Source of the DNA: Planctomycetota bacterium
GTDB taxonomy: Bacteria > Planctomycetota > UBA8742 > UBA2392
NCBI GenBank assembly: GCA_020849795.1
Contig: JADZFR010000025.1
Coordinates: 1-64,000 of the forward strand
Direction: 5' to 3'
DNA length: 64,000 nucleotides
The notes beneath the pieces are model-generated. The model was not told where the DNA came from, ran no database searches, and saw nothing but the letters and a program-made list of their open reading frames with translations. Position 1 is the first letter of the stretch, and each line of letters opens with the position of its first letter. Below are positions 191 to 51,420 of the stretch, one piece after another. Position numbers and translations under genes: made by a program.

Positions 191-2647
191 TCACTTCCTG
201 AATCCGCCTTCGCACTCGCCCAGCACCTGCAACGCCTGGCAGGTACCGATCAGGTCGCCGAATGCATGGTGGTCGTTCCACACTCCGCCTTCTTCGCGGT
301 CGAGCATAACGGCCTTGAGCACGATCTCGTTGGTCTTCTTGGCGGTATCGCCGCCCACTTCCTTGGCCGCCTGGATGGCGTAGTAGTGGCCAAACATCCA
401 ATAGTAAGCCGCGTTCTGGTACAGGTGACGGGCGTGCGTATGCCAGAAGTCGCGCACACGGTCGAGCTCATAGCGGTACTTGATGAACGCATCGACAGAT
501 TTCTTCAGTTGATCCTTGGTGCGCAACTTGGCCTTGTACTGCTGCAACTCACAACCGCAGATGCGGCCCACGTTGCCACGAATGTCGCTGGCAAAGGGAA
601 GGGCAAATGCCCACTGCTTGGCGTCGGCTTTGTAGAGGTAGCTTTCAAGACCCGGTATATTCGGGTCTTCGACGCGCAGGCCGGTGATCAGGCGTTCGCC
701 TGCACCCAGTGCAGATTTCGGCGGAGTCAGCCCCAGCAGGTCGCGGCCGCGGTACAGCGCAATCAGCGCCGCCGACGTCGAGTGCGTGGTCGCCAGGCCC
801 ATCCATGGGTAGTAAGCCCAGCCGCCTTCTTCGACCGGCGTCTCGCTGGGCGAGCTGAGCCGCGCCTTGGCGGTTTGCTCTTTGCCCTTGCGCTTGAAGG
901 TCACGTTGACCTCGTCGCCCGCGCTGTAGTACATCAGGACGTCGCTGAAGGCGATGCGGTCCGGCGTGTTATGGCCCTCAACCTTCGTGATCACGTCGCC
1001 GGGCTTCAAACCGGCTTTGTCGCCCGAGCCGCCGGACAGAACCTGCATGATGCGGCACTCGGAGTACAGCAACTGTGATGCCTGGCCGGCAATCGCGCCG
1101 CCGACGAACACGACGTCCATGCTGCCCGGCTGTACCAGCGGGGAAACCATGGTGGATTTCTCCATCTGTTCGCCGCCGCGGACCCAGCGCACGTTGACCA
1201 ACTCGCCGGCCGGCAGCCGCGCCGAGACAAACTGGTAGTGGTCAAGGCCGGCAATCGGCACATGGTTGATGTGTGTGATGCGGTCGCCGACCTTGATGCC
1301 AAGGCGCAGCGCCGCAAACCCCGGAAAGCGGAAGAACGCGGGGTTGCCTGTCTGCAGCCCGTACATTTCGTAGTAGGGCTTGACCTCAACACCGTCGAGG
1401 CCGCTCGTGTCTTCTGCGATCGAGAATATGTCTAGCGCGCCCTCTGGTGCGTACGCGCCTTTGAAGGTCACCGTGGTGGACTTGCCGCCGCGGCTGACGG
1501 CGATCTTCACGTCCTTGTCCGGTGCCAGCGCGCTAACGGCCTTCTTCAGGTCGGCATCGCTTGCGATGGCTATGCCGTTGATGCTGGTAATCTTGTCGCC
1601 GACTTCCATGCCGGCCTTCAGTGCGGGCGACTTGGCCAGGAAGTTGTCGGCGATGGCGCTGTTGCCATCCCAGCGCACGGCGATGCCCGTGTAGATCGGC
1701 CAGGTCATGGGAATCTGGGCGCTGATGCTCTCGACGGCGCCGCCTTCGCGCTTCACTTTCAAGTCGATCGTCTGGCCCTGGATGAACTCCAGCTCAAGCA
1801 GGTAGTAGTCAAAGGCATTTTCAATACGGATGCCTTCGGCTTCGGTGATGCGGTCGCCGGGCTTCAAGCCTGCCTTTTCGGCTGCGCTGCCGGCAACTGT
1901 GCCCTCGACTGGTGCGCCACCGCGATAGTCCTGGTCGGTCGGCAGGGTCAACACCACGCCCATGTCGCCGGGCAAAGATGCCTTGGCTGCGCGAGCGTCT
2001 GCTTTGGCGCGACGGCGCTGGTCCATCAACGTGCGCTCGCCGTTGTTGAGCTGGATGCGAAGCAGACCGTCCATGCAGCGCTTGGCCGTGCTGTGATAGA
2101 GGGCCTTGCGGTCGGCGTCGGTGGTCGACTGGTGGCGCTCAATCATGAACTCAAGGGCAAGCGTGTAGCGCCAGCAGGCGTAGTCAACCTGAAAGCTGAG
2201 CTTGCCGCGGATGATGCGGTCAATGACGAAGGCGGCTGCCTTTTCAAGCGCGGGCTCGATGCGGTCATCCAGGTGTTTGTGCGGCGCGAGCGAGATGCCT
2301 GCCAACGCGGTTACTGCAACGGCATCCATCGCCTGGTCGGCGGTGTACGACAGCAGGTGGCCTTCGAGCAGCACGTCCCACGAGCCGTTTTCCTGCTGGG
2401 CCGTCAGAACGTGGTGCGCACCTTCCTTGATCGCCGTGCGTACTTCTTCATCGGTCGGCATCGGACCGGTCAGGTCGTATGGTTCCTGCGGTACCCAGGC
2501 ATCCGGGTCGCGCTGGCTCGGGTCCAGCTTGGTCGCTTTGGCTTCTTTGACCTTGGGTTCCTGGCCGCTCTCTTGTCCGCTCACCGGCACAAAGCATGCG
2601 GGTAGCGCAAGTAACGCGCACACTGCGATCCAGCGTGAAATGATCAT
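191..2647 (-). CDS. Exported lipoprotein-like protein: alpha-toroid domain interrupted by four PDZ domains
   Basis: 818 residues. The start at 2647 is chosen because AGGAGA lies about 10 nt upstream; it gives an N-terminus MIISRWIAVCALLALPAC with a lipobox-like LPAC, so it is likely a secreted or lipid-anchored protein. Residues about 65-203 look like a squalene-cyclase/prenyltransferase-type alpha-alpha toroid (VLTAQQENGSW; LLRIQLNNG). Residues about 226-600 contain four PDZ domains, seen in the repeated GLKPGDRIT, GMEVGDKITSING, GIKVGDRITHIN and GLKPGDVITKVEG motifs. Residues 607-818 resume the toroid (EEGGWAYYPWMG). No protease catalytic domain is visible, so the PDZ domains probably bind peptides or scaffold partners. 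It ends at a strong terminator and stands 145 bp downstream of the kinase gene in the same direction. The biological function is unknown. Confidence 0.8.
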   Translation of the reverse strand: MIISRWIAVCALLALPACFVPVSGQESGQEPKVKEAKATKLDPSQRDPDAWVPQEPYDLTGPMPTDEEVRTAIKEGAHHVLTAQQENGSWDVLLEGHLLSYTADQAMDAVAVTALAGISLAPHKHLDDRIEPALEKAAAFVIDRIIRGKLSFQVDYACWRYTLALEFMIERHQSTTDADRKALYHSTAKRCMDGLLRIQLNNGERTLMDQRRRAKADARAAKASLPGDMGVVLTLPTDQDYRGGAPVEGTVAGSAAEKAGLKPGDRITEAEGIRIENAFDYYLLELEFIQGQTIDLKVKREGGAVESISAQIPMTWPIYTGIAVRWDGNSAIADNFLAKSPALKAGMEVGDKITSINGIAIASDADLKKAVSALAPDKDVKIAVSRGGKSTTVTFKGAYAPEGALDIFSIAEDTSGLDGVEVKPYYEMYGLQTGNPAFFRFPGFAALRLGIKVGDRITHINHVPIAGLDHYQFVSARLPAGELVNVRWVRGGEQMEKSTMVSPLVQPGSMDVVFVGGAIAGQASQLLYSECRIMQVLSGGSGDKAGLKPGDVITKVEGHNTPDRIAFSDVLMYYSAGDEVNVTFKRKGKEQTAKARLSSPSETPVEEGGWAYYPWMGLATTHSTSAALIALYRGRDLLGLTPPKSALGAGERLITGLRVEDPNIPGLESYLYKADAKQWAFALPFASDIRGNVGRICGCELQQYKAKLRTKDQLKKSVDAFIKYRYELDRVRDFWHTHARHLYQNAAYYWMFGHYYAIQAAKEVGGDTAKKTNEIVLKAVMLDREEGGVWNDHHAFGDLIGTCQALQVLGECEGGFRK

Positions 2648-2792: not shown

Positions 2793-5700
2793 TCAATCCT
2801 GAGGAAGCTTGGCAGCCGGCCGAAAGCCGCGGTCATCGGCCCCCTTGTCGGGCAGGCGCCGTGAACGGGCATAGGTGCGAATGTCGCCGGGCGCGTCTTC
2901 ATCCGTCTTCTGGGGTTCAATCAGGCGCGGCGACTGCCAGCTGCCGCCCCGGGCGACGCGCCGATTGCTGGCGCCGGGTTTGGTGCGCAGCACCGGGTCT
3001 TTGCCCTGCTGGCCCGGCAGCGCGTAGCCGCCTTCTTCGTACCAGTCGAGGCACCACTCTTCCACGTTGCCGGCCATCATGCGCAGTCCAAATGGCGAAT
3101 CGCCATCGGCCATCGTGTCGCCGGTGACCGTGGCGTCTCGGCCAGTGATCTTGATGTTGGCGCGCCGCGTGTTGACGGGCTCGTTGCCCCACGGAAACTG
3201 CCGTCCATCGGTTCCGCGTGCTGCAAACTCCCACTGCGCCTCGCTGGGCAGGTCGCCGGTGTCGGCGTCGGCCCACTTGCAATACGCCTGCGCACCGGTC
3301 CATGTCACGTGTGTGACCGGAAACTGGCCCTCACCCTCGGCTGCGCTCCATTGATTGCCCGCAACCTGCAAGCCGGCGAATTCGCCGGTCTCGTCCTTGA
3401 CCAGCCAGCGGCGCCCAAGCGCGTCGTCGGCGTTGACGCGCGATTCGGTCAGGAACTTTGCGAACTGCGCCCGCGTGACCTCGTACATGGCGATGAGATA
3501 GGGCGACAGCTCAATCTCACGTTCGCGCGCGTCGGGCAGCACTTCGGCTACACCACGCGTGAATTTGCCGCCGGGCACCAGCACCATCAACATGCCATCG
3601 CTAATCCGCTCGTACACCGCATGGCCCTGTGCGTTCTTCTCCAGCGGCTTGTACAGCAGGCGCTTCACTTCGATCACCACTTCGGCTGGTGTGGTGCGGC
3701 GTGCGGGGTCGGTGGCCTCGAGCGTGACCTTGAAGGGGCCGAATGCGTCCGTTTGCACATCGATGGCAAACGTGCCATCGGGGTTGACGGTGACGACTCT
3801 GCCGTTCACGGTCAGCACCGCGTCGGCGCTGTCCAGCGTGCCCTGTACCGCGATGCCGGCGGGTACTGACTCGACGCGCAGTGTACCGGCCTGCGGCAGT
3901 TCAAGCGTCAACTTGGGGGGATCAAGGTCCACAACCACAGAGCGCTTGAGTTCGCGTATGTTTCCGATCCAGTCAGTGGCGACCATCGCAATATCGTGGC
4001 GGCCCGGGGCACGCGTCACTGTGGCGCTGAAGTTGCCGTCTGTGTCAAGCTTGGTCGGTTTACCGTCAATCGCCAATGTCACGCCCCGGTTCTTGCTGAG
4101 CTTGCCGCTGATCGTGAAGTTCTCGGTGGTGACCCACACGGCGCCTTTGGGTTCGTCGATGAACGACAGCGGGTTGCGGTCGGGGCTGACCCAGAAGGTC
4201 AGAGCCTGCGTCTGATTGCCGGCGCGGTCGGTCGCCATCAACTCCAGCGTGACGTCTTTCTCCGACACAGGTATGTCCCGCTCAAACCCACCCCTGGGGT
4301 CGAGCACCAGTTCGCGCAATTCGCCGTCAATCAGCAGGGTCACTTTCAGGCCGTCGAGCCCGCTTCCTTCGTCGGTGACGCTACCCTTAAGCTTGTAGGA
4401 AGAAACGGTCGTCGGAATCACGTTGCCGTCGCGCCCTGCCAAGTCGGGCACTGCTACCAATGGGACGCTTTCGTCCAGCAGCACAAACAAGGTGCGCTCA
4501 AGGGTCGATTCGCCCAGCGCAGCTTTCACATGCAGCGTGTTCAAGCCCGGCTTGAGGTTAATCGAATCGCCCAGCGCGTACGGCACGCCGTTCAGGGTGA
4601 CTTCGCCGTTGCTGGTGCCGGGAATGCTGAATGACTTCTTGTTCACCGCCAGCGGCAGGGCCTCTAGTGCGCGGTCAGGCGGAATGGCCAGTTCAAAGGC
4701 AAGCTGTGTAGGGCTGCCGCTCCCATTGTCCTTGCCACCAAAAATGATGTACGCGCCAACCGCGGCTGCAATCAGGACCAGTAGGGCTACCGCAATCATC
4801 GGCGCCTTGCTGCGCGGCTGCAGCGAGCCCATCGAAGTGGGCGTGCTGCCCTCGAGTGTGCTGCCGTGTTGCAGCATGGCACGCGTGGCGGCAGGTGGGG
4901 CACTTGCGGCCTTGGTGTTGGCCGAGCTTGAGGAAAGTACAGACCGCGCGCCGGTCACGCCGCGCGTCTCTTCCATGGTCGGCGCTTTGAACAGGCTGGT
5001 GCCCTGGTACGGGTGCTGATCCCACCAAGCTTCCAGGGCCAGCGCCATTTCTTGCGAAGTCTGGTAGCGATCATCTTTTTCGGGCGCGATTGCCTTGTGC
5101 ACGATCGCAGCCAGGTCGCGGTCGATGTCGGGGTTGTGTTCGTTGACTAACTTCGCCTGAGACGTCAGCACGTTCCGAAAGATGTCTCGCGCGTTCTTGC
5201 CTGGAAACGGCAGCTTGCCGCACAGCATCACGTACAGCGTTGCGCCCAGCGCATAGATGTCGCTGCGATGGTCAACACCTTCGCCCTGCCACTGTTCCAG
5301 CGGCATATACTGCGGCGTGCCCATGATATAGCCGGCCATGGTCAGCTGCTCGCCGCTTTCCCCGCCCTCAGGCTGCCCGACATCGCGCACCAGGCCAAAG
5401 TCCATCAGCTTGGCGATGTCTTCTTCATTGATCATGATGTTGGCAGGCTTGATGTCGCGATGGATGATGTTGCGCGAGTGCGCATAGGCCAGCGCGTTGG
5501 CGACCATGTGGATGTAGCGCACAGAGTCATGCAGGTTCAGCCCGGGCGAGCGCATGATCTGCTCAAGTGTCTTGCCCTCGACGAACTCCATGGCCAGGTA
5601 GTAAATGCCGTCGACCTGGTCGGCACCCACCACCTGCACGATGTTCATGTGTTTGAGCCGAGCGGTGTTGCGGGCTTCACGCAGGAAGCGTTCGACCAGG

Positions 5701-5864
5701 GTCTGGTCGCCGATCAGCTTCGGGTGAATGACCTTGATGGCGTGGTAGACATCGAGCACGCGATGCCGTGCCAGGTACACGCCGCCCATGGCGCCCTGAC
5801 CCAGCTTGCGCTCGATCTTGTACGGGCCAAGCTCGCCCTTGTTCAGAAGTGGGTCGTCGCTCAT
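2793..5864 (-). CDS. Transmembrane Ser/Thr protein kinase with C-terminal FGE-sulfatase-like domain
   Basis: 1023 residues. The N-terminal Hanks-type kinase domain has the glycine loop GQGAMGGVY (22-30), K44 in HAIKVI, HRDIKPAN with D137, DFG at 155-157 and SDIYALG, so it should be active. A single membrane segment spans about 355-375, after a Ser/Ala-rich linker. The outer part contains several Ig-like beta repeats (about 385-735). It ends in a formylglycine-generating-enzyme/SUMF1-type domain (about 745-1015: VPGGKFTRG, MAGNVEEWCLDWY, RVARGGSW, RGFRPA). The late segment has no Cys pair like that of true FGEs, so the domain is probably a ligand-binding module rather than an oxidase. The ATG lies 9 nt after the stop of the upstream TlpA-like gene, suggesting an operon. 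Likely role: envelope sensor that phosphorylates cytoplasmic targets; targets unknown. Confidence 0.9.
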   Translation of the reverse strand: MSDDPLLNKGELGPYKIERKLGQGAMGGVYLARHRVLDVYHAIKVIHPKLIGDQTLVERFLREARNTARLKHMNIVQVVGADQVDGIYYLAMEFVEGKTLEQIMRSPGLNLHDSVRYIHMVANALAYAHSRNIIHRDIKPANIMINEEDIAKLMDFGLVRDVGQPEGGESGEQLTMAGYIMGTPQYMPLEQWQGEGVDHRSDIYALGATLYVMLCGKLPFPGKNARDIFRNVLTSQAKLVNEHNPDIDRDLAAIVHKAIAPEKDDRYQTSQEMALALEAWWDQHPYQGTSLFKAPTMEETRGVTGARSVLSSSSANTKAASAPPAATRAMLQHGSTLEGSTPTSMGSLQPRSKAPMIAVALLVLIAAAVGAYIIFGGKDNGSGSPTQLAFELAIPPDRALEALPLAVNKKSFSIPGTSNGEVTLNGVPYALGDSINLKPGLNTLHVKAALGESTLERTLFVLLDESVPLVAVPDLAGRDGNVIPTTVSSYKLKGSVTDEGSGLDGLKVTLLIDGELRELVLDPRGGFERDIPVSEKDVTLELMATDRAGNQTQALTFWVSPDRNPLSFIDEPKGAVWVTTENFTISGKLSKNRGVTLAIDGKPTKLDTDGNFSATVTRAPGRHDIAMVATDWIGNIRELKRSVVVDLDPPKLTLELPQAGTLRVESVPAGIAVQGTLDSADAVLTVNGRVVTVNPDGTFAIDVQTDAFGPFKVTLEATDPARRTTPAEVVIEVKRLLYKPLEKNAQGHAVYERISDGMLMVLVPGGKFTRGVAEVLPDAREREIELSPYLIAMYEVTRAQFAKFLTESRVNADDALGRRWLVKDETGEFAGLQVAGNQWSAAEGEGQFPVTHVTWTGAQAYCKWADADTGDLPSEAQWEFAARGTDGRQFPWGNEPVNTRRANIKITGRDATVTGDTMADGDSPFGLRMMAGNVEEWCLDWYEEGGYALPGQQGKDPVLRTKPGASNRRVARGGSWQSPRLIEPQKTDEDAPGDIRTYARSRRLPDKGADDRGFRPAAKLPQD

Positions 5865-23944: not shown

Positions 23945-27799
<3,855 letters not shown>

Positions 27800-45681: not shown

Positions 45682-46071
45682 CCGTGAAACGGCAGCCTGT
45701 CTCGGGGCATCCTGTCCTTACATATGTGTGGTGCCTGCATGGATGGCCGACCGTGCCGCACGCCGTCGCCTTTTGTGCCCGCCGCTCTGCCCCCGCCATC
45801 CGCCAAGCCGCTCGGCGCTTGGCTTGCAGCCGTATCTGCACGGAGGTGTCTCTTCGTACAACCCTCCGCCAACGCAAGCCACCATCGCCCCCTGACAGCA
45901 ATGGCCCGGATGGCGGGTGTGTGGGAAGAGTGTGGTCACGTGTATATAGACGGACTAGCATGCAGCCGGACTTGATGGCGATCGACTGATTTGATCAGGT
46001 GTATTGCGTCCAACCGCGCTTCGCGCTGCACGCTTGTTTCTCGTCTCTGTGTAATGCCACATGAGGTTCGC
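45682..46071 (+). other. 390-bp intergenic region, no gene seen
   Basis: Between the glycosidase-like gene and the kinase-WD40 gene. A small hairpin GCCGT..ACGGC follows the upstream stop. The right part is AT-richer (ACGTGTATATAGACGG; TGATTTGATCA) and probably contains the promoter of the kinase gene. I see no RNA gene, repeat or conserved ORF. Confidence 0.5.
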
Positions 46072-49000
46072 ATGTCGCAGGCTGAGGCAAAGTGGCCGGC
46101 CACGGAACTTGGCGCCGAGCGGTTTGTGCGCCGCGCGCTGGCCTTGCTCGAGGCGGATTTCCGGGGGCTGGCGCTGCACGCGCTTGCGTTGTGGGAGACT
46201 TCCGGCACGGTTTCCCCCGCCCTGTTTGAGGCACTGGGTAACCTGCAACGGCCCTCATTCGGCTCGTTCAAGGGACTCATTGATTCTCTGCGCAAGGCGC
46301 GTTCGACAGCCTCGCATGGACAAGAGCAAGCTGTCGCGCCGGAATTGGGGCGGCTGCTTGAACTGCTGGACCAGCGGCCTTCGCGAGAAACGCTCGAAGC
46401 ACTTCGTCCTCTGGCCGACCTGTGCCGCACCAAGGTGTCGGGGCTGACGCTGCTGGGCCTGTTGGCCATGCCGATTGCCTTGCGCAACGACGTAGCGCAT
46501 CAAACGCCTGCACCAGATGCGCCATTCTGGAACCGCGCCGCTGACGCACTCATCCCGCTCGTCGAGCTTCACAAGGCTGGCCTGCTGGGCCTGCGCCAGC
46601 ATCTGCAGTCGCGGGCGCCCGCTGTCCCCTGGTTCGTTGTGCGCGACGGGCGCGTGCTGACATTCAACGGCCTGACACACGACTACGCGGCCCGCTACTC
46701 GGGTGACGATGGCGACCCTTTGGTGGATGAGACGTTGGCGGGGCCGGTGTTGCGCTCTATCGCGCGCATGCTCGGTGAGGCCGAAACCAGCGAGCGCGAG
46801 CTGAAAAAGCTGCTCAAGCGCCTCGCGCCTGAGGAACTGCGCGGCGTGGTGCTGGACGACTATCTTGTGGGCCGACCCGTCGGCGAGGGTGGTTTTGCGA
46901 CGGTGCACCTGGCACGCCAGCTTTCGACAGGCCGGCGCGTAGCACTGAAGATTCTGCGCGACAGCGCGACGGCGGAAGACGCTGCGCGCTTTCAAAAGGA
47001 GGCAGAGTTTCTTTCCCTGCTCAACCACCCGAACATTGTGCAGGTCCTCGGCTATGGGGAAGGCACGTGGCTGGTGCCGCGCAACGTCGACCTGTCGGGC
47101 GAGGCCTGGTTCGAGCCTCTGTTTGTGCGCGGTAAGCCGGCAAAGACCTTCATCGCATTGGAGTGGGTTGAGGGTCGCACGCTGGAAGAAGTATGGAAGC
47201 AGATCGCTGCCCGCGACCCGAAGTCGCCGAGCCATCGAGATCTTACGCACTGGCTGGAGCAGGCGGCACGCGCGCTTGAGGTGGTGCACGGCGTGGGGCT
47301 GATTCACCGCGACATCAAGCCCTCCAACCTGATGGTGGCGGCCGATGGCAACCTCAAGCTGATGGACTTCGGCATTGCGCGCTCGCAAAGCGCCGCGCGC
47401 ACCATTCAAACTCGCTCGGGTGAAGCGCCGGGAACGCTGGCGTATATGTCGCCGGAGCAGTTGCGCATGAGGCACTCGGAGGTCGGGGTCGGATCGCCCA
47501 CGGACGTTTACTCGTTGTGCGCGACTTTTTACGAACTCTACACCGGCACGCGGATCTTCGAGTGGGATCTTGACGACACACGGATTTCCCAGGGCAAACT
47601 TGACGAAACCTCGCACTTCAAGCGGGAACACGCGCAGCGCCCGGCAGCCCCGCGCATCGCGTTGCCCCGAGCCGGGTCAGAAGTGCGCGCGCTGCTGCAG
47701 GGCGGGCTGGAGCCTGAGCCGAAGGACCGTCCTAGCGCAGGCGTGCTGGCTTCAGATGTTGCGCTGGCGCTGGCCAGCCGCCCGATCATGTACCGGCCAC
47801 CCGGGGCTGCCCGGCGAATGCAGCTGGCATACCGGCGCAACCCGCTGCTGTGGAATGCGGTGGCGGTGTTTGTGGTCTGCGCGGTCCTGGGCGTCGCCGC
47901 TTACATTTGGACCATCACGCAAGAGCAGGCGCGAACCGAAGAGCAGCGCGACATCGCGCTGGAAAACGAGCGCAAAGAAGCGGCGGCCAGGAAGCTCGCA
48001 CAGGAGAACGAGGCCGAAGCCAAGCGCCAGGAGCGAATCGCTGGCGAACGCGCTGAGGGCGAAAGGAAGGCAAAGGAGGAGGCCCAGCTGCGGCTGCGAG
48101 AATCGCGGCGAAATTCCGCGCGCATTCAGGTGAATCTGGCCCAGACGGCGCGCAAAGAACTTCGCCGGCAGGCGGCCTTGCTGCATATCCAGGCCGCGCG
48201 CGACCTGAGTGATGACTTGGAAGGTGAACCCCCGGACAACGTGCTGCGTGAAAGCACTGGTCCGCTGTGGCGTACCCGCCCGCTTTTTGCCGGACTGAAC
48301 GTGTTGGCTTCCCCGGAGTTTGGAGACTACTACGGAAGCATCTCCATGGATGCGACAGGACGCCTCGCTGTCGCACCGGTCCAAGATGGCTTGGTCGTGT
48401 GGGATGTCCTGACGGGCGACACGGTCGCGAGCTTTGGTTTTGCCTACTCCGGCTATGACTACTATTCCGCAAAGTTCTCGGCTGATGGCAGCAAGATTTT
48501 TGCCGCCGGCGCGAGCCACGTTCTGGACATCTGGGACGTGGCAACCTCGGAACGCGTTGCAAGCCTCGAGGGTCACGCCAACGACGTGCTCGCCATGGCC
48601 GAGTTCAAGTCCGACGGACTGCTCGCCACAACATCAGCTGATCGCACCATTCGTATCTGGGACACCGGCACACTGACGTCCAAAGCCAAATGGAGCGCGC
48701 CACCTGAGGTTGGCCGCGCTCTGGCTTTCAGCGCGGACGGCCGACTGCTGGCATTGGGCATGCACGAGGGGTCGGTGGCAGTTTTCAATGCCGCCGATGG
48801 TACCCAGCTTTTGGGCTGGCAGGCCCACCATGCCCAAATCCGCGACGTGGCGTGGCTCAGGGACGACCAGCAAATCATCACCGCTGGCGACGACGGTAAA
48901 ATCCATATCTGGAATGCAGCCACGGGCGACATGGTTGCGGGATTCGTCGGGCATGAAGGACCGATTCTGGACATTGCACTGAGTTACGATGAGCGCGAAC

Positions 49001-51420
49001 TGCTGTCTGGTGGCGCCGACTGCAAACTCCGGGTCTGGGACGTGCAGGCAAGTGCGCTGCGTCAGGAGATGTCGGGACACTGGGGCGCCATCAACTTCGT
49101 CAGTTTCACCCCACACCAGGGCATGGTGATCTCGGCTGCGCTGGACGGCACATGGCGGTTCTGGAACGCCGAAGCGGCCAAGGAATGCCGCGCACTTGAA
49201 GGCTTGCAGCATCAACTCCAAGGGATGGTGGTAGTTCCCGGTGGGAAGGGAGTGGCGGTAATCGAGTTCGAAGGATCGGTCGCGCTGCTGGATGTGCTGA
49301 CGGGTGCCGTGCGCTGGCGTGTATCGGAGGTGTTCGATACACCGCGCAGCGTAAGCGCCAGCCCCGATGGACGATGGATTGCTGTCGGCCAGTCCAACGG
49401 GCAGATCCTGATCTACCGCGTGCGCGACGGCTCGTTGGCGGCGGAGATTGCAGGCGAAGGCGGTGCTGTGACAACGTTGGCATTCAGTCCCGATGGGCGC
49501 GAATTGACTGCCGGTTGTGCCGACGACACGCTGAACAGGTTCAACGTCGGAACCTGGCAGCGCGTGGGCCGGATCGGGCCTCTTCCTTCGAGCGTTTCCG
49601 GCATGGATTACCTTCCGCAGGGCGACTCTGTCCTGGTCGCGTGCGATGACCGATACTTGCGGCTCATCCGCATCATTGACGGAGAAGTGCTGCGTGCCTA
49701 CCCGCAGCGTAGAAGCCTTGTGCTGAGCGGAGTCAGTGTGTCGCCCAATGGTGTGTGGGCGGTGAGCGGCAGCGACGGTTCTTCCGTTCGTGTCTGGAAG
49801 CTGGACGAAAGCGAAGAGTACACGCGCATCGACGTGGCCGGCCTAGTCATGGTCAATGCTGTCGACATCAGCCCGGATGGCGCGTTTGTGCTTGCCGCGC
49901 TTTCGGATGGATCGGTGCGCCTGATCGCGATGCGGGATGGCAAAGAGGTCCGCAGGTTCGAGGGGGCCTCCGGAGAGTCGCGTCACGTTGCATTTGCAAT
50001 CGACGGCGCGTTTGCCATTGCCTGCTCGGACGACAAGTCCGTCGCGTCTTGGGAAGTGCAACCGACAACCGTCCGCGTATCGTTTGATGCCAACACCAGC
50101 TACATGCGTTGTGCAGCCTACAGCCCCGATGAATCGCAAATCGCGACGTGCGGCAGGGACGGACGCATCCGGACATTCGATGCGACGACAGGCGAGCGAT
50201 TGGCGGAATCCGCCGACTTGGGCGAAGAGGTAACGCGGGTGGAATACGCGCCCGATGGGTCGAGCATCGCATGCTCCACGGACAAAGGGCGCATATGCCT
50301 GCTTCATCCCGAAACCCTGGGCGTGATCCTGAAACTCACGGGGCACAGTGACTGCGTCAACTACCTGCTGTTCAACAAGAGCGGCACGGAACTGGCCTCC
50401 TGCGCTTTCGACGGCACGATCCGGATCTGGAGCCTGCCGCAGGGCATCGAGCGCCTTTGCATTGACGCATCCGACACCTTCCGGGCAATCGCCTTTACGC
50501 CGGATGAAACCCAGATCGTCACCGGCGGCGCGACGGGAGCCATCAAGGTCTTCGCGTACACTTCCGGCCAGCTTCTGCGGACGTTCGACGGCCACATCGG
50601 CGCCATCCGCGGCCTGAGACTCTCGCGTGATGGCACAACTCTGGTGACGTGTTCTTACGACAAGACTGCGCGAGTCTGGGACTTCGCTTCCGGCACTGAG
50701 CGGCACCGTTTCGCAATACATCGTTTCGCCTCGCCGAGCTGGGTCGACATCAGCGCCGATGGCCAGAAACTGGTTTGCGGCGGCGACGATCGCACGGCCC
50801 GAGTCTGGGACATGGCCACGGGCCGGTTGCTCATCGTCTATGAAGAAACGAAAAGCGGCGCGCTGCACACCGTACGCTTCAACAAAGCCGGCGACGAAGT
50901 GCTGATGGCCTGCGACGGCAAGACAGCTCGCATCGTCTCGGTCAGGGCATGGGTCGACGAGGTTCCCCGCGATGATCGTGCCGCGTTCGTTTCGCGCATC
51001 GCCCGGCTGCGGCTGGATGCTGCTCAGGCGATGGTGCTGCCTGACTCGCGCGCCACCGAGACTGGCGGTGGAGGTACATGGGCCGACCCCGTGGCCTCGC
51101 TCTACCTTGTACGGGCCAAATCAGTCCTTGATGCGTTGGGTGCGCATCGACTGTCTCAACGCGCTGAGAAAGTCTGGCGCTTGTTCTGCGAGTGGCGAAG
51201 TCGGCTTGCAAATGAGCGCGTGGCGCGACTGGCGCGCCAGTGGCGCGACATGTTCGAAGGCTATCGGTACCGGGAAGTGCGTGACGCCGCCGGCAGAATT
51301 GAAAGAGTGCCCGTGCCGGAGCGCACCCGGAACGCCGGGGGTGAATACATCGGCGAGCCCGAAGGCGAGATCGACTATCAGCGCTGGTGGGACGAAGTGG
51401 TAAAGCCGGAATTCAAGTAG
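46072..51420 (+). CDS. Ser/Thr protein kinase - WD40 repeat fusion protein
   Basis: 1782 residues from ATG 46072, chosen for GAGG 5 nt upstream. Residues 1-260 form a helical N-terminal domain not recognised, containing RNDVAH (138-143), an R-x4-H pattern seen in HEPN domains. Kinase domain about 262-570: GEGGFATVHL, K293, HRDIKPSN with D414, DFG 432-434, PTDVYSLC. Membrane helix about 593-614, then a charged coiled coil (about 615-690). From about 720 to 1620 lies a long array of WD40 repeats (ending in motifs such as IRIWD, IHIWN, LRVWD, VRVWK, ARVWD), enough for two beta-propellers. C-terminal 160 residues are helical. Kinase-WD40 fusions are typical of bacteria with large signalling repertoires. 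Role: membrane signalling scaffold; targets unknown. Confidence 0.9.
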   Translation: MSQAEAKWPATELGAERFVRRALALLEADFRGLALHALALWETSGTVSPALFEALGNLQRPSFGSFKGLIDSLRKARSTASHGQEQAVAPELGRLLELLDQRPSRETLEALRPLADLCRTKVSGLTLLGLLAMPIALRNDVAHQTPAPDAPFWNRAADALIPLVELHKAGLLGLRQHLQSRAPAVPWFVVRDGRVLTFNGLTHDYAARYSGDDGDPLVDETLAGPVLRSIARMLGEAETSERELKKLLKRLAPEELRGVVLDDYLVGRPVGEGGFATVHLARQLSTGRRVALKILRDSATAEDAARFQKEAEFLSLLNHPNIVQVLGYGEGTWLVPRNVDLSGEAWFEPLFVRGKPAKTFIALEWVEGRTLEEVWKQIAARDPKSPSHRDLTHWLEQAARALEVVHGVGLIHRDIKPSNLMVAADGNLKLMDFGIARSQSAARTIQTRSGEAPGTLAYMSPEQLRMRHSEVGVGSPTDVYSLCATFYELYTGTRIFEWDLDDTRISQGKLDETSHFKREHAQRPAAPRIALPRAGSEVRALLQGGLEPEPKDRPSAGVLASDVALALASRPIMYRPPGAARRMQLAYRRNPLLWNAVAVFVVCAVLGVAAYIWTITQEQARTEEQRDIALENERKEAAARKLAQENEAEAKRQERIAGERAEGERKAKEEAQLRLRESRRNSARIQVNLAQTARKELRRQAALLHIQAARDLSDDLEGEPPDNVLRESTGPLWRTRPLFAGLNVLASPEFGDYYGSISMDATGRLAVAPVQDGLVVWDVLTGDTVASFGFAYSGYDYYSAKFSADGSKIFAAGASHVLDIWDVATSERVASLEGHANDVLAMAEFKSDGLLATTSADRTIRIWDTGTLTSKAKWSAPPEVGRALAFSADGRLLALGMHEGSVAVFNAADGTQLLGWQAHHAQIRDVAWLRDDQQIITAGDDGKIHIWNAATGDMVAGFVGHEGPILDIALSYDERELLSGGADCKLRVWDVQASALRQEMSGHWGAINFVSFTPHQGMVISAALDGTWRFWNAEAAKECRALEGLQHQLQGMVVVPGGKGVAVIEFEGSVALLDVLTGAVRWRVSEVFDTPRSVSASPDGRWIAVGQSNGQILIYRVRDGSLAAEIAGEGGAVTTLAFSPDGRELTAGCADDTLNRFNVGTWQRVGRIGPLPSSVSGMDYLPQGDSVLVACDDRYLRLIRIIDGEVLRAYPQRRSLVLSGVSVSPNGVWAVSGSDGSSVRVWKLDESEEYTRIDVAGLVMVNAVDISPDGAFVLAALSDGSVRLIAMRDGKEVRRFEGASGESRHVAFAIDGAFAIACSDDKSVASWEVQPTTVRVSFDANTSYMRCAAYSPDESQIATCGRDGRIRTFDATTGERLAESADLGEEVTRVEYAPDGSSIACSTDKGRICLLHPETLGVILKLTGHSDCVNYLLFNKSGTELASCAFDGTIRIWSLPQGIERLCIDASDTFRAIAFTPDETQIVTGGATGAIKVFAYTSGQLLRTFDGHIGAIRGLRLSRDGTTLVTCSYDKTARVWDFASGTERHRFAIHRFASPSWVDISADGQKLVCGGDDRTARVWDMATGRLLIVYEETKSGALHTVRFNKAGDEVLMACDGKTARIVSVRAWVDEVPRDDRAAFVSRIARLRLDAAQAMVLPDSRATETGGGGTWADPVASLYLVRAKSVLDALGAHRLSQRAEKVWRLFCEWRSRLANERVARLARQWRDMFEGYRYREVRDAAGRIERVPVPERTRNAGGEYIGEPEGEIDYQRWWDEVVKPEFK

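Follow-up and report, generated by a model that had tools for sequence, protein, structure and literature searches.

Gene Location and Domain Organization

The gene described in this report originates from a Planctomycetota bacterium (GenBank assembly GCA_020849795.1, contig JADZFR010000025.1). It lies within a stretch of 64,000 nucleotides, which is referred to here as the window. The gene runs on the minus strand from position 2647 to 191 and encodes a protein of 818 residues. The ATG codon is at 2647 with an AGGAG just upstream, and the stop codon occupies positions 191–193. This start agrees with that of a close copy of the gene in a second genome (G193). All of the features of the protein that are described below are thus encoded on the minus strand.

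A signal sequence was read at the N-terminus (about residues 1–24, positions 2575–2647), and the structural model has a helix at residues 3–17 that is followed by a segment with pLDDT values of less than 50. From this reading of the N-terminal sequence the protein is predicted to be exported. The remainder is composed of two toroid halves that are separated by an array of PDZ domains. The N-terminal half (residues 59–203, positions 2039–2473), with helices 1–5, was delimited by profile matches and the helices of the model. The C-terminal half (residues 606–818, positions 194–832), with helices 6–12, was delimited by these same two lines of evidence and by conservation. Between them is an insert of 402 residues (204–605, positions 833–2038), whose limits were set by the alignment of homologues and by the break in the profile match.

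Four PDZ domains were found within the insert using the PDZ_2 profile: PDZ 1 at positions 1742–1969 (E 5.8e-6), PDZ 2 at 1466–1687 (E 6.2e-13), PDZ 3 at 1160–1303 (E 1.2e-4), and PDZ 4 at 863–1072 (E 5.5e-11). The match to PDZ 3 is above the cutoff together with its neighbors and covers the second half of the domain, whose full extent is about residues 402–501. The PDZ profile PF13180 matches the protein over four stretches with a score of 137.3 bits against a curated cutoff of 27, which makes it a member of this family. No protease domain was found in the gene by Pfam to E 10, and no toroid family was found in the protein by Pfam to E 10 or by NCBIfam. Since the matches of the whole protein in Pfam and NCBIfam are of the PDZ type only, the homology of the toroid halves had to be established via relatives.

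Division of One QW Motif by the PDZ Array

The original prediction was that the N-terminal half ends with LLRIQLNNG, that the sequence resumes about 400 residues later with EEGGWAYY, and that the two pieces are the parts of one QW-type motif divided by the PDZ array. The coordinates hold. The first part was located at residues 195–203 (positions 2039–2065) and the second at residues 606–613 (positions 809–832), in both cases by homologue alignments and conservation, with 402 residues between them. The rejoined motif is present in uninterrupted homologues, for example as YRYQSPRGGWGYY.

A search for homologues with an uninterrupted toroid, which had been proposed as a check, was successful, and the two halves of the window protein match these homologues consecutively. 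In one such protein (L027) the N-terminal half matches residues 118–280 and the C-terminal half matches residues 282–466, back to back. The joint in L027 reads LDGLYRYQSPRGGWGYY, and the corresponding sequence of the window protein is MDGLLRIQLNNG, followed by the 402 residues and then by EEGGWAYY. Many distant homologues are 370–500 residues in length and have no PDZ domain. Residues Q199 and W610 are 411 residues apart in the window protein, and their counterparts in the uninterrupted proteins belong to a single Q-x3-G-G-W motif (Q...GGWxYY). Both are among the residues that are invariant in all 24 of the aligned PDZ-bearing proteins (Q84, W90, Q199, G608, G609, W610, Y612, and Y613).

A profile constructed from four uninterrupted toroids (401 positions) matched the window protein in two ordered pieces, residues 59–215 (E 3.3e-12) and 591–790 (E 1.4e-21), and a 29-member profile of uninterrupted toroids likewise matched it in two pieces (E 3e-18 and 8.3e-33). 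The edges of the break vary where the local profile match stops short or overruns. The profile comparison and the tree include 98 distinct rows, of which 22 have four PDZ domains, 3 have a single PDZ domain, and 73 are others. Rows that covered fewer than 270 profile positions, had more than two profile hits, or were identical in sequence to another were dropped before this count. Loci from L143 onward were omitted as repeats of the same records. A PDZ-sized insert was found at profile positions of about 183–187 in 22 of the 22 four-PDZ rows, the window protein included, and in each of the 3 single-PDZ rows; L057_3493 was excluded from the latter count, as its profile gap is at 239–327, away from the insertion site. 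Among the other 73 rows, 72 have no break of 60 residues or more and one has a 92-residue gap elsewhere; none has a PDZ-sized insert at the site. The claim of a nested insertion is therefore upheld, with a profile that breaks at a single site only in the PDZ-bearing clade and with two halves that align to one toroid chain.

A 23rd gene of the family (L062 in genome G237), which is not included in the tree, is split by a frameshift in its first half, yet the break in its two frames falls at the same place in the profile (position 184). The frameshift reflects either decay or an assembly error.

Predicted Structure

The AlphaFold2 model of the window protein, which was obtained with a 24-row alignment, has a pLDDT of 81.9 and a pTM of 0.78. 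Residues 202–220 have pLDDT values below 50, and the linkers are of low confidence. The model contains five long toroid helices before the insert (residues 66–82, 109–126, 130–147, 157–174, and 178–198) and seven after it (621–638, 644–657, 696–705, 711–730, 743–764, 766–783, and 797–811). The resulting count of 12 takes the long helices and omits the short ones. An uninterrupted homologue that is encoded in the genome of the window was modeled with a pLDDT of 83.8 and a pTM of 0.81 and has 12 helices by the same count; its GGWGYY loop sits between the fifth (180–202) and sixth (229–244) helices.

Structure prediction had also been suggested as a check, and in the model the two halves together align to the single toroid chain of a cyclase. 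Using VIA-align, residues 62–815 of the PDZ-bearing model were superimposed on the squalene-hopene cyclase 8pak_B, a chain of 347 residues, with a Z of 23.7, an rmsd of 3.4, and 285 aligned residues. The next matches, within a few Z units, were to further cyclases and to a number of (alpha/alpha)6 sugar enzymes. The model of the uninterrupted homologue also matches these same cyclases (2sqc_A, Z 22.7), and the uninterrupted-toroid profile finds squalene-hopene cyclase by sequence (E 1.3e-24). The best whole-model matches in Foldseek were the PDZ regions of DegQ and DegP. The thioester toroids of complement and TEP proteins and the GH76-type glycosidases are among the good fold matches as well, so that no function can be assigned from the fold match by itself.

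In the predicted model both halves thus contribute to a single closed (alpha/alpha)6 toroid. We conclude with high confidence that the protein is one 12-helix (alpha/alpha)6 toroid with four HtrA-type PDZ domains inserted in the helix 5–6 loop, where they interrupt a QW motif.

Phylogenetic Distribution and Origin of the Insertion

The surveys of 294, 392, and 149 genomes that are reported here are samples from a larger group. A search of 294 Planctomycetota genomes with the C-terminal half gave matches in 168. The four-PDZ architecture was found in 23 genes and in 16 of the 16 genomes of the window's family, and the nested architecture is therefore not an assembly chimera or artifact. The clade was detected in 17 of the 392 phylum genomes surveyed, namely the 16 of the window's family and one distant planctomycete of another family (G188). 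The E values fall from about 1e-76 to 1e-33 between this clade and the next hits, and the first three proteins beyond it (L028, L067, and L027) show no break at the insertion site. In the distant planctomycete, three paralogues each bear one PDZ domain at the same site. This genome also contains at least 16 toroid-related places (L064–L067, L070, and L084–L102), whose N-terminal additions are varied.

In the tree the four-PDZ rows are on one side of a branch with a value of 100, and the four-PDZ rows together with the three single-PDZ rows are on one side of a branch with a value of 97, amid rows that are free of an insert. These trees are of the quick kind and were calculated without bootstrap. 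The window protein accordingly has the three properties of a nested family, namely an insertion between helices 5 and 6, a location inside the QW motif, and restriction to one clade.

The single PDZ domains of the distant planctomycete score highest against the profile of PDZ 3 (best 55.2 bits, mean 50.2 bits) and next against that of PDZ 2 (best 43.5 bits, mean 38.7 bits). The closeness to PDZ 3 fits one insertion, followed either by growth from one domain to four or by loss from four to one. A recent tandem duplication of the PDZ domains is unsupported, as their profiles give similar scores to the genome's other PDZ domains and to one another; the mean outgroup scores in this comparison are too low because 4 of the 10 outgroup pieces were antisense translations.

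The nested insertion is real and is fixed in the window's family. The computations establish the ancestry from an unbroken toroid, the one insertion site, the one clade, and the closed toroid in the model. The family is a clean case of nested insertion, for which the unbroken toroid that came before and the forms with one and with four PDZ domains are all available at one site.

Sequence Conservation and Relationship to Cyclases

The acidic DxDD motif defines the class II terpene cyclases. It is absent from the window protein, which is therefore not a canonical cyclase, and it is present in 2 of the 98 rows, neither of which bears a PDZ domain. The family PF13243 (SQHop_cyclase_C) has no match in the window protein to E 10. 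At E 0.001 this family was detected in 27 of 29 uninterrupted toroids versus 4 of 24 rows of the PDZ family. The protein has a cyclase-like toroid fold but lacks both of these marks of a cyclase.

A set of residues in the C-terminal half is common to the window protein and the uninterrupted toroids: R658, Y670, R695, R732, H738, Y748, and H754. In the 73 rows without an insertion at the site the counts were determined to be 72 for Y670, 70 for R695, 68 for H738, 67 for W159 of the N-terminal half, 61 for R732, 59 for R658, and 56 for H754. Among 21 aligned genes of the family, the mean pairwise identities of the N- and C-terminal toroid halves are 58.0 and 52.7%, respectively, and those of PDZ 1, 2, 3, and 4 are 51.1, 39.2, 43.5, and 34.7%, respectively. 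Conservation within the family is higher in the toroid halves than in the PDZ domains, and the toroid is therefore not a decaying shell. PDZ 2, 3, and 4 are the least conserved domains, which fits a role as linkers or scaffolds as well as it fits specific peptide binding.

Gene Neighborhood

The contig ends 190 bases downstream of the window gene. A gene found 145 bases upstream on the same strand (positions 2793–5864) encodes a Ser/Thr kinase with fused Ig-like and FGE-sulfatase domains. A functional link to this kinase was rejected: in another genome (G068) the kinase is not upstream, and kinases are found downstream. No conserved neighbor of the window-type copy was found in the four loci that could be viewed; the loci of the window and of G193 end too soon. 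Two other genes of the window were noted by eye. The first (23945–27799) encodes a repetitive, coiled-coil-like protein of 1284 residues that is very rich in Gln, Glu, and Lys, and the second (45991–51420) encodes a protein of 1809 residues that reads as a Ser/Thr kinase followed by WD40 repeats.

Of the 16 loci with the family's second type of copy, 14 have genes for an HlyD-like adaptor and an uninterrupted toroid downstream of it on the same strand; of the remaining two, one is at a contig end and the other has no adaptor or toroid. In 7 of the 16 loci a protein of the 865-residue type that weakly resembles the toroid profile is encoded upstream of this copy. The genome of the window has such a gene row on contig C2 (L043:5539–13641), which consists of the weakly toroid-like protein of 865 residues, a paralogous four-PDZ toroid, the HlyD-like adaptor, and an unbroken toroid with a lipoprotein-like start.

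Proposed Function

We propose that the four PDZ domains hang on two flexible linkers from the loop between helices 5 and 6, where they would capture other exported proteins by their C-terminal tails and keep these tails at the toroid. The conserved set of Arg, His, and Tyr residues may form a ligand-binding or catalytic pocket of the toroid, as judged from the alignments. The protein would then be a tethered, substrate-recruiting enzyme or receptor and not a terpene cyclase. Taken jointly, the nested anatomy and this mechanism of recruitment and pocket have about an even chance of being correct.

It is possible, with a smaller degree of confidence, that the toroid acts as an inert frame, or as an anchor to carbohydrate or the cell surface, and that the protein simply provides exported proteins with a multivalent PDZ scaffold. 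Four consecutive PDZ domains are scaffold-like, the DxDD motif is absent, the toroid folds include nonenzymes, and the model matches the complement and TEP thioester toroids. However, the Arg/His/Tyr set is retained in both the PDZ family and the unbroken toroids, and no other part of the protein is as well conserved as the toroid halves.

A role in the quality control of export, in which the PDZ domains bind the C-termini of unfolded proteins as in HtrA and DegQ and the toroid is a holding cavity, is unlikely. The Foldseek matches to DegQ and DegP are consistent with such a role, and the bacterial PDZ proteins are mostly linked to proteases and stress (PMC6411480). However, the gene has no protease domain, and no protease was seen among the conserved neighbors.

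A further reading takes the protein for an exported enzyme whose substrates are protein C-termini. The toroid of the protein prenyltransferases takes C-terminal peptides, and by analogy the PDZ array would feed such peptides into the toroid pocket. This would be an extracytoplasmic counterpart of the peptide uptake by prenyltransferases, and it would have arisen twice in the Planctomycetota, nested in the present family and linear in the DUF6288 proteins that are described below. We consider this reading to be a long shot. Finally, it is highly improbable that two separate helical domains merely flank the PDZ array, the outcome that was to count against the original prediction. In favor of this, Pfam finds no toroid in the window protein; against it, the two halves follow one another along a single uninterrupted profile and together match one toroid chain in the PDB.

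Comparison with Known Systems

The window protein resembles the single toroids of the squalene-hopene cyclase type (8pak, 8paj, MstE; PF13243) in its 12-helix toroid, its QW motifs, and the structural match over both halves. It differs from them in the absence of DxDD, in not being recognized by PF13243, and in the insert of 402 residues in the helix 5–6 loop. The PDZ domains are of the type found in the HtrA/DegQ proteases, but the window protein has no protease domain and its four PDZ domains are nested in a toroid. A domain is also inserted in an alpha toroid in those class II terpene cyclases that have a gamma domain within the beta toroid. The gamma insert is itself another helical toroid and is located near helices 1 and 2, whereas the insert described here consists of PDZ domains in the helix 5–6 loop.

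The closest parallel in composition is provided by DUF6288 (PF19805), whose members are also planctomycete proteins that join PDZ and toroid in one chain. No literature on nested toroid–PDZ proteins or on DUF6288 was found in the open-licence literature. DUF6288 was found in 64 of the 149 planctomycete genomes that were searched, including two places in the window's own genome (L206 and L207; others are among L186–L218). PF19805 does not match the window protein in Pfam to E 10, and it matches 1 of 24 relatives (2.1e-4). Among the 31 DUF6288 ORFs listed, both PDZ and toroid were detected in 20, and the PDZ domain precedes the toroid in all 20, whereas the PDZ domain is inside the toroid in 25 of the 25 PDZ-inserted rows. 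From these sequences DUF6288 appears to be a linear fusion of PDZ and then an unbroken toroid.

In a tree of 14 of the 25 PDZ-inserted rows, 35 of the 73 others, and 10 DUF6288 ORFs, the DUF6288 toroids form a clade of their own (branch value of 99), and a common clade for the two PDZ–toroid groups is disfavored (p-AU 0.014). PDZ and toroid have thus been joined in two arrangements, probably independently. The recurrence of the pairing of PDZ domains with a cyclase-like toroid in DUF6288, in the other order, provides a testable hypothesis for two uncharacterized families.
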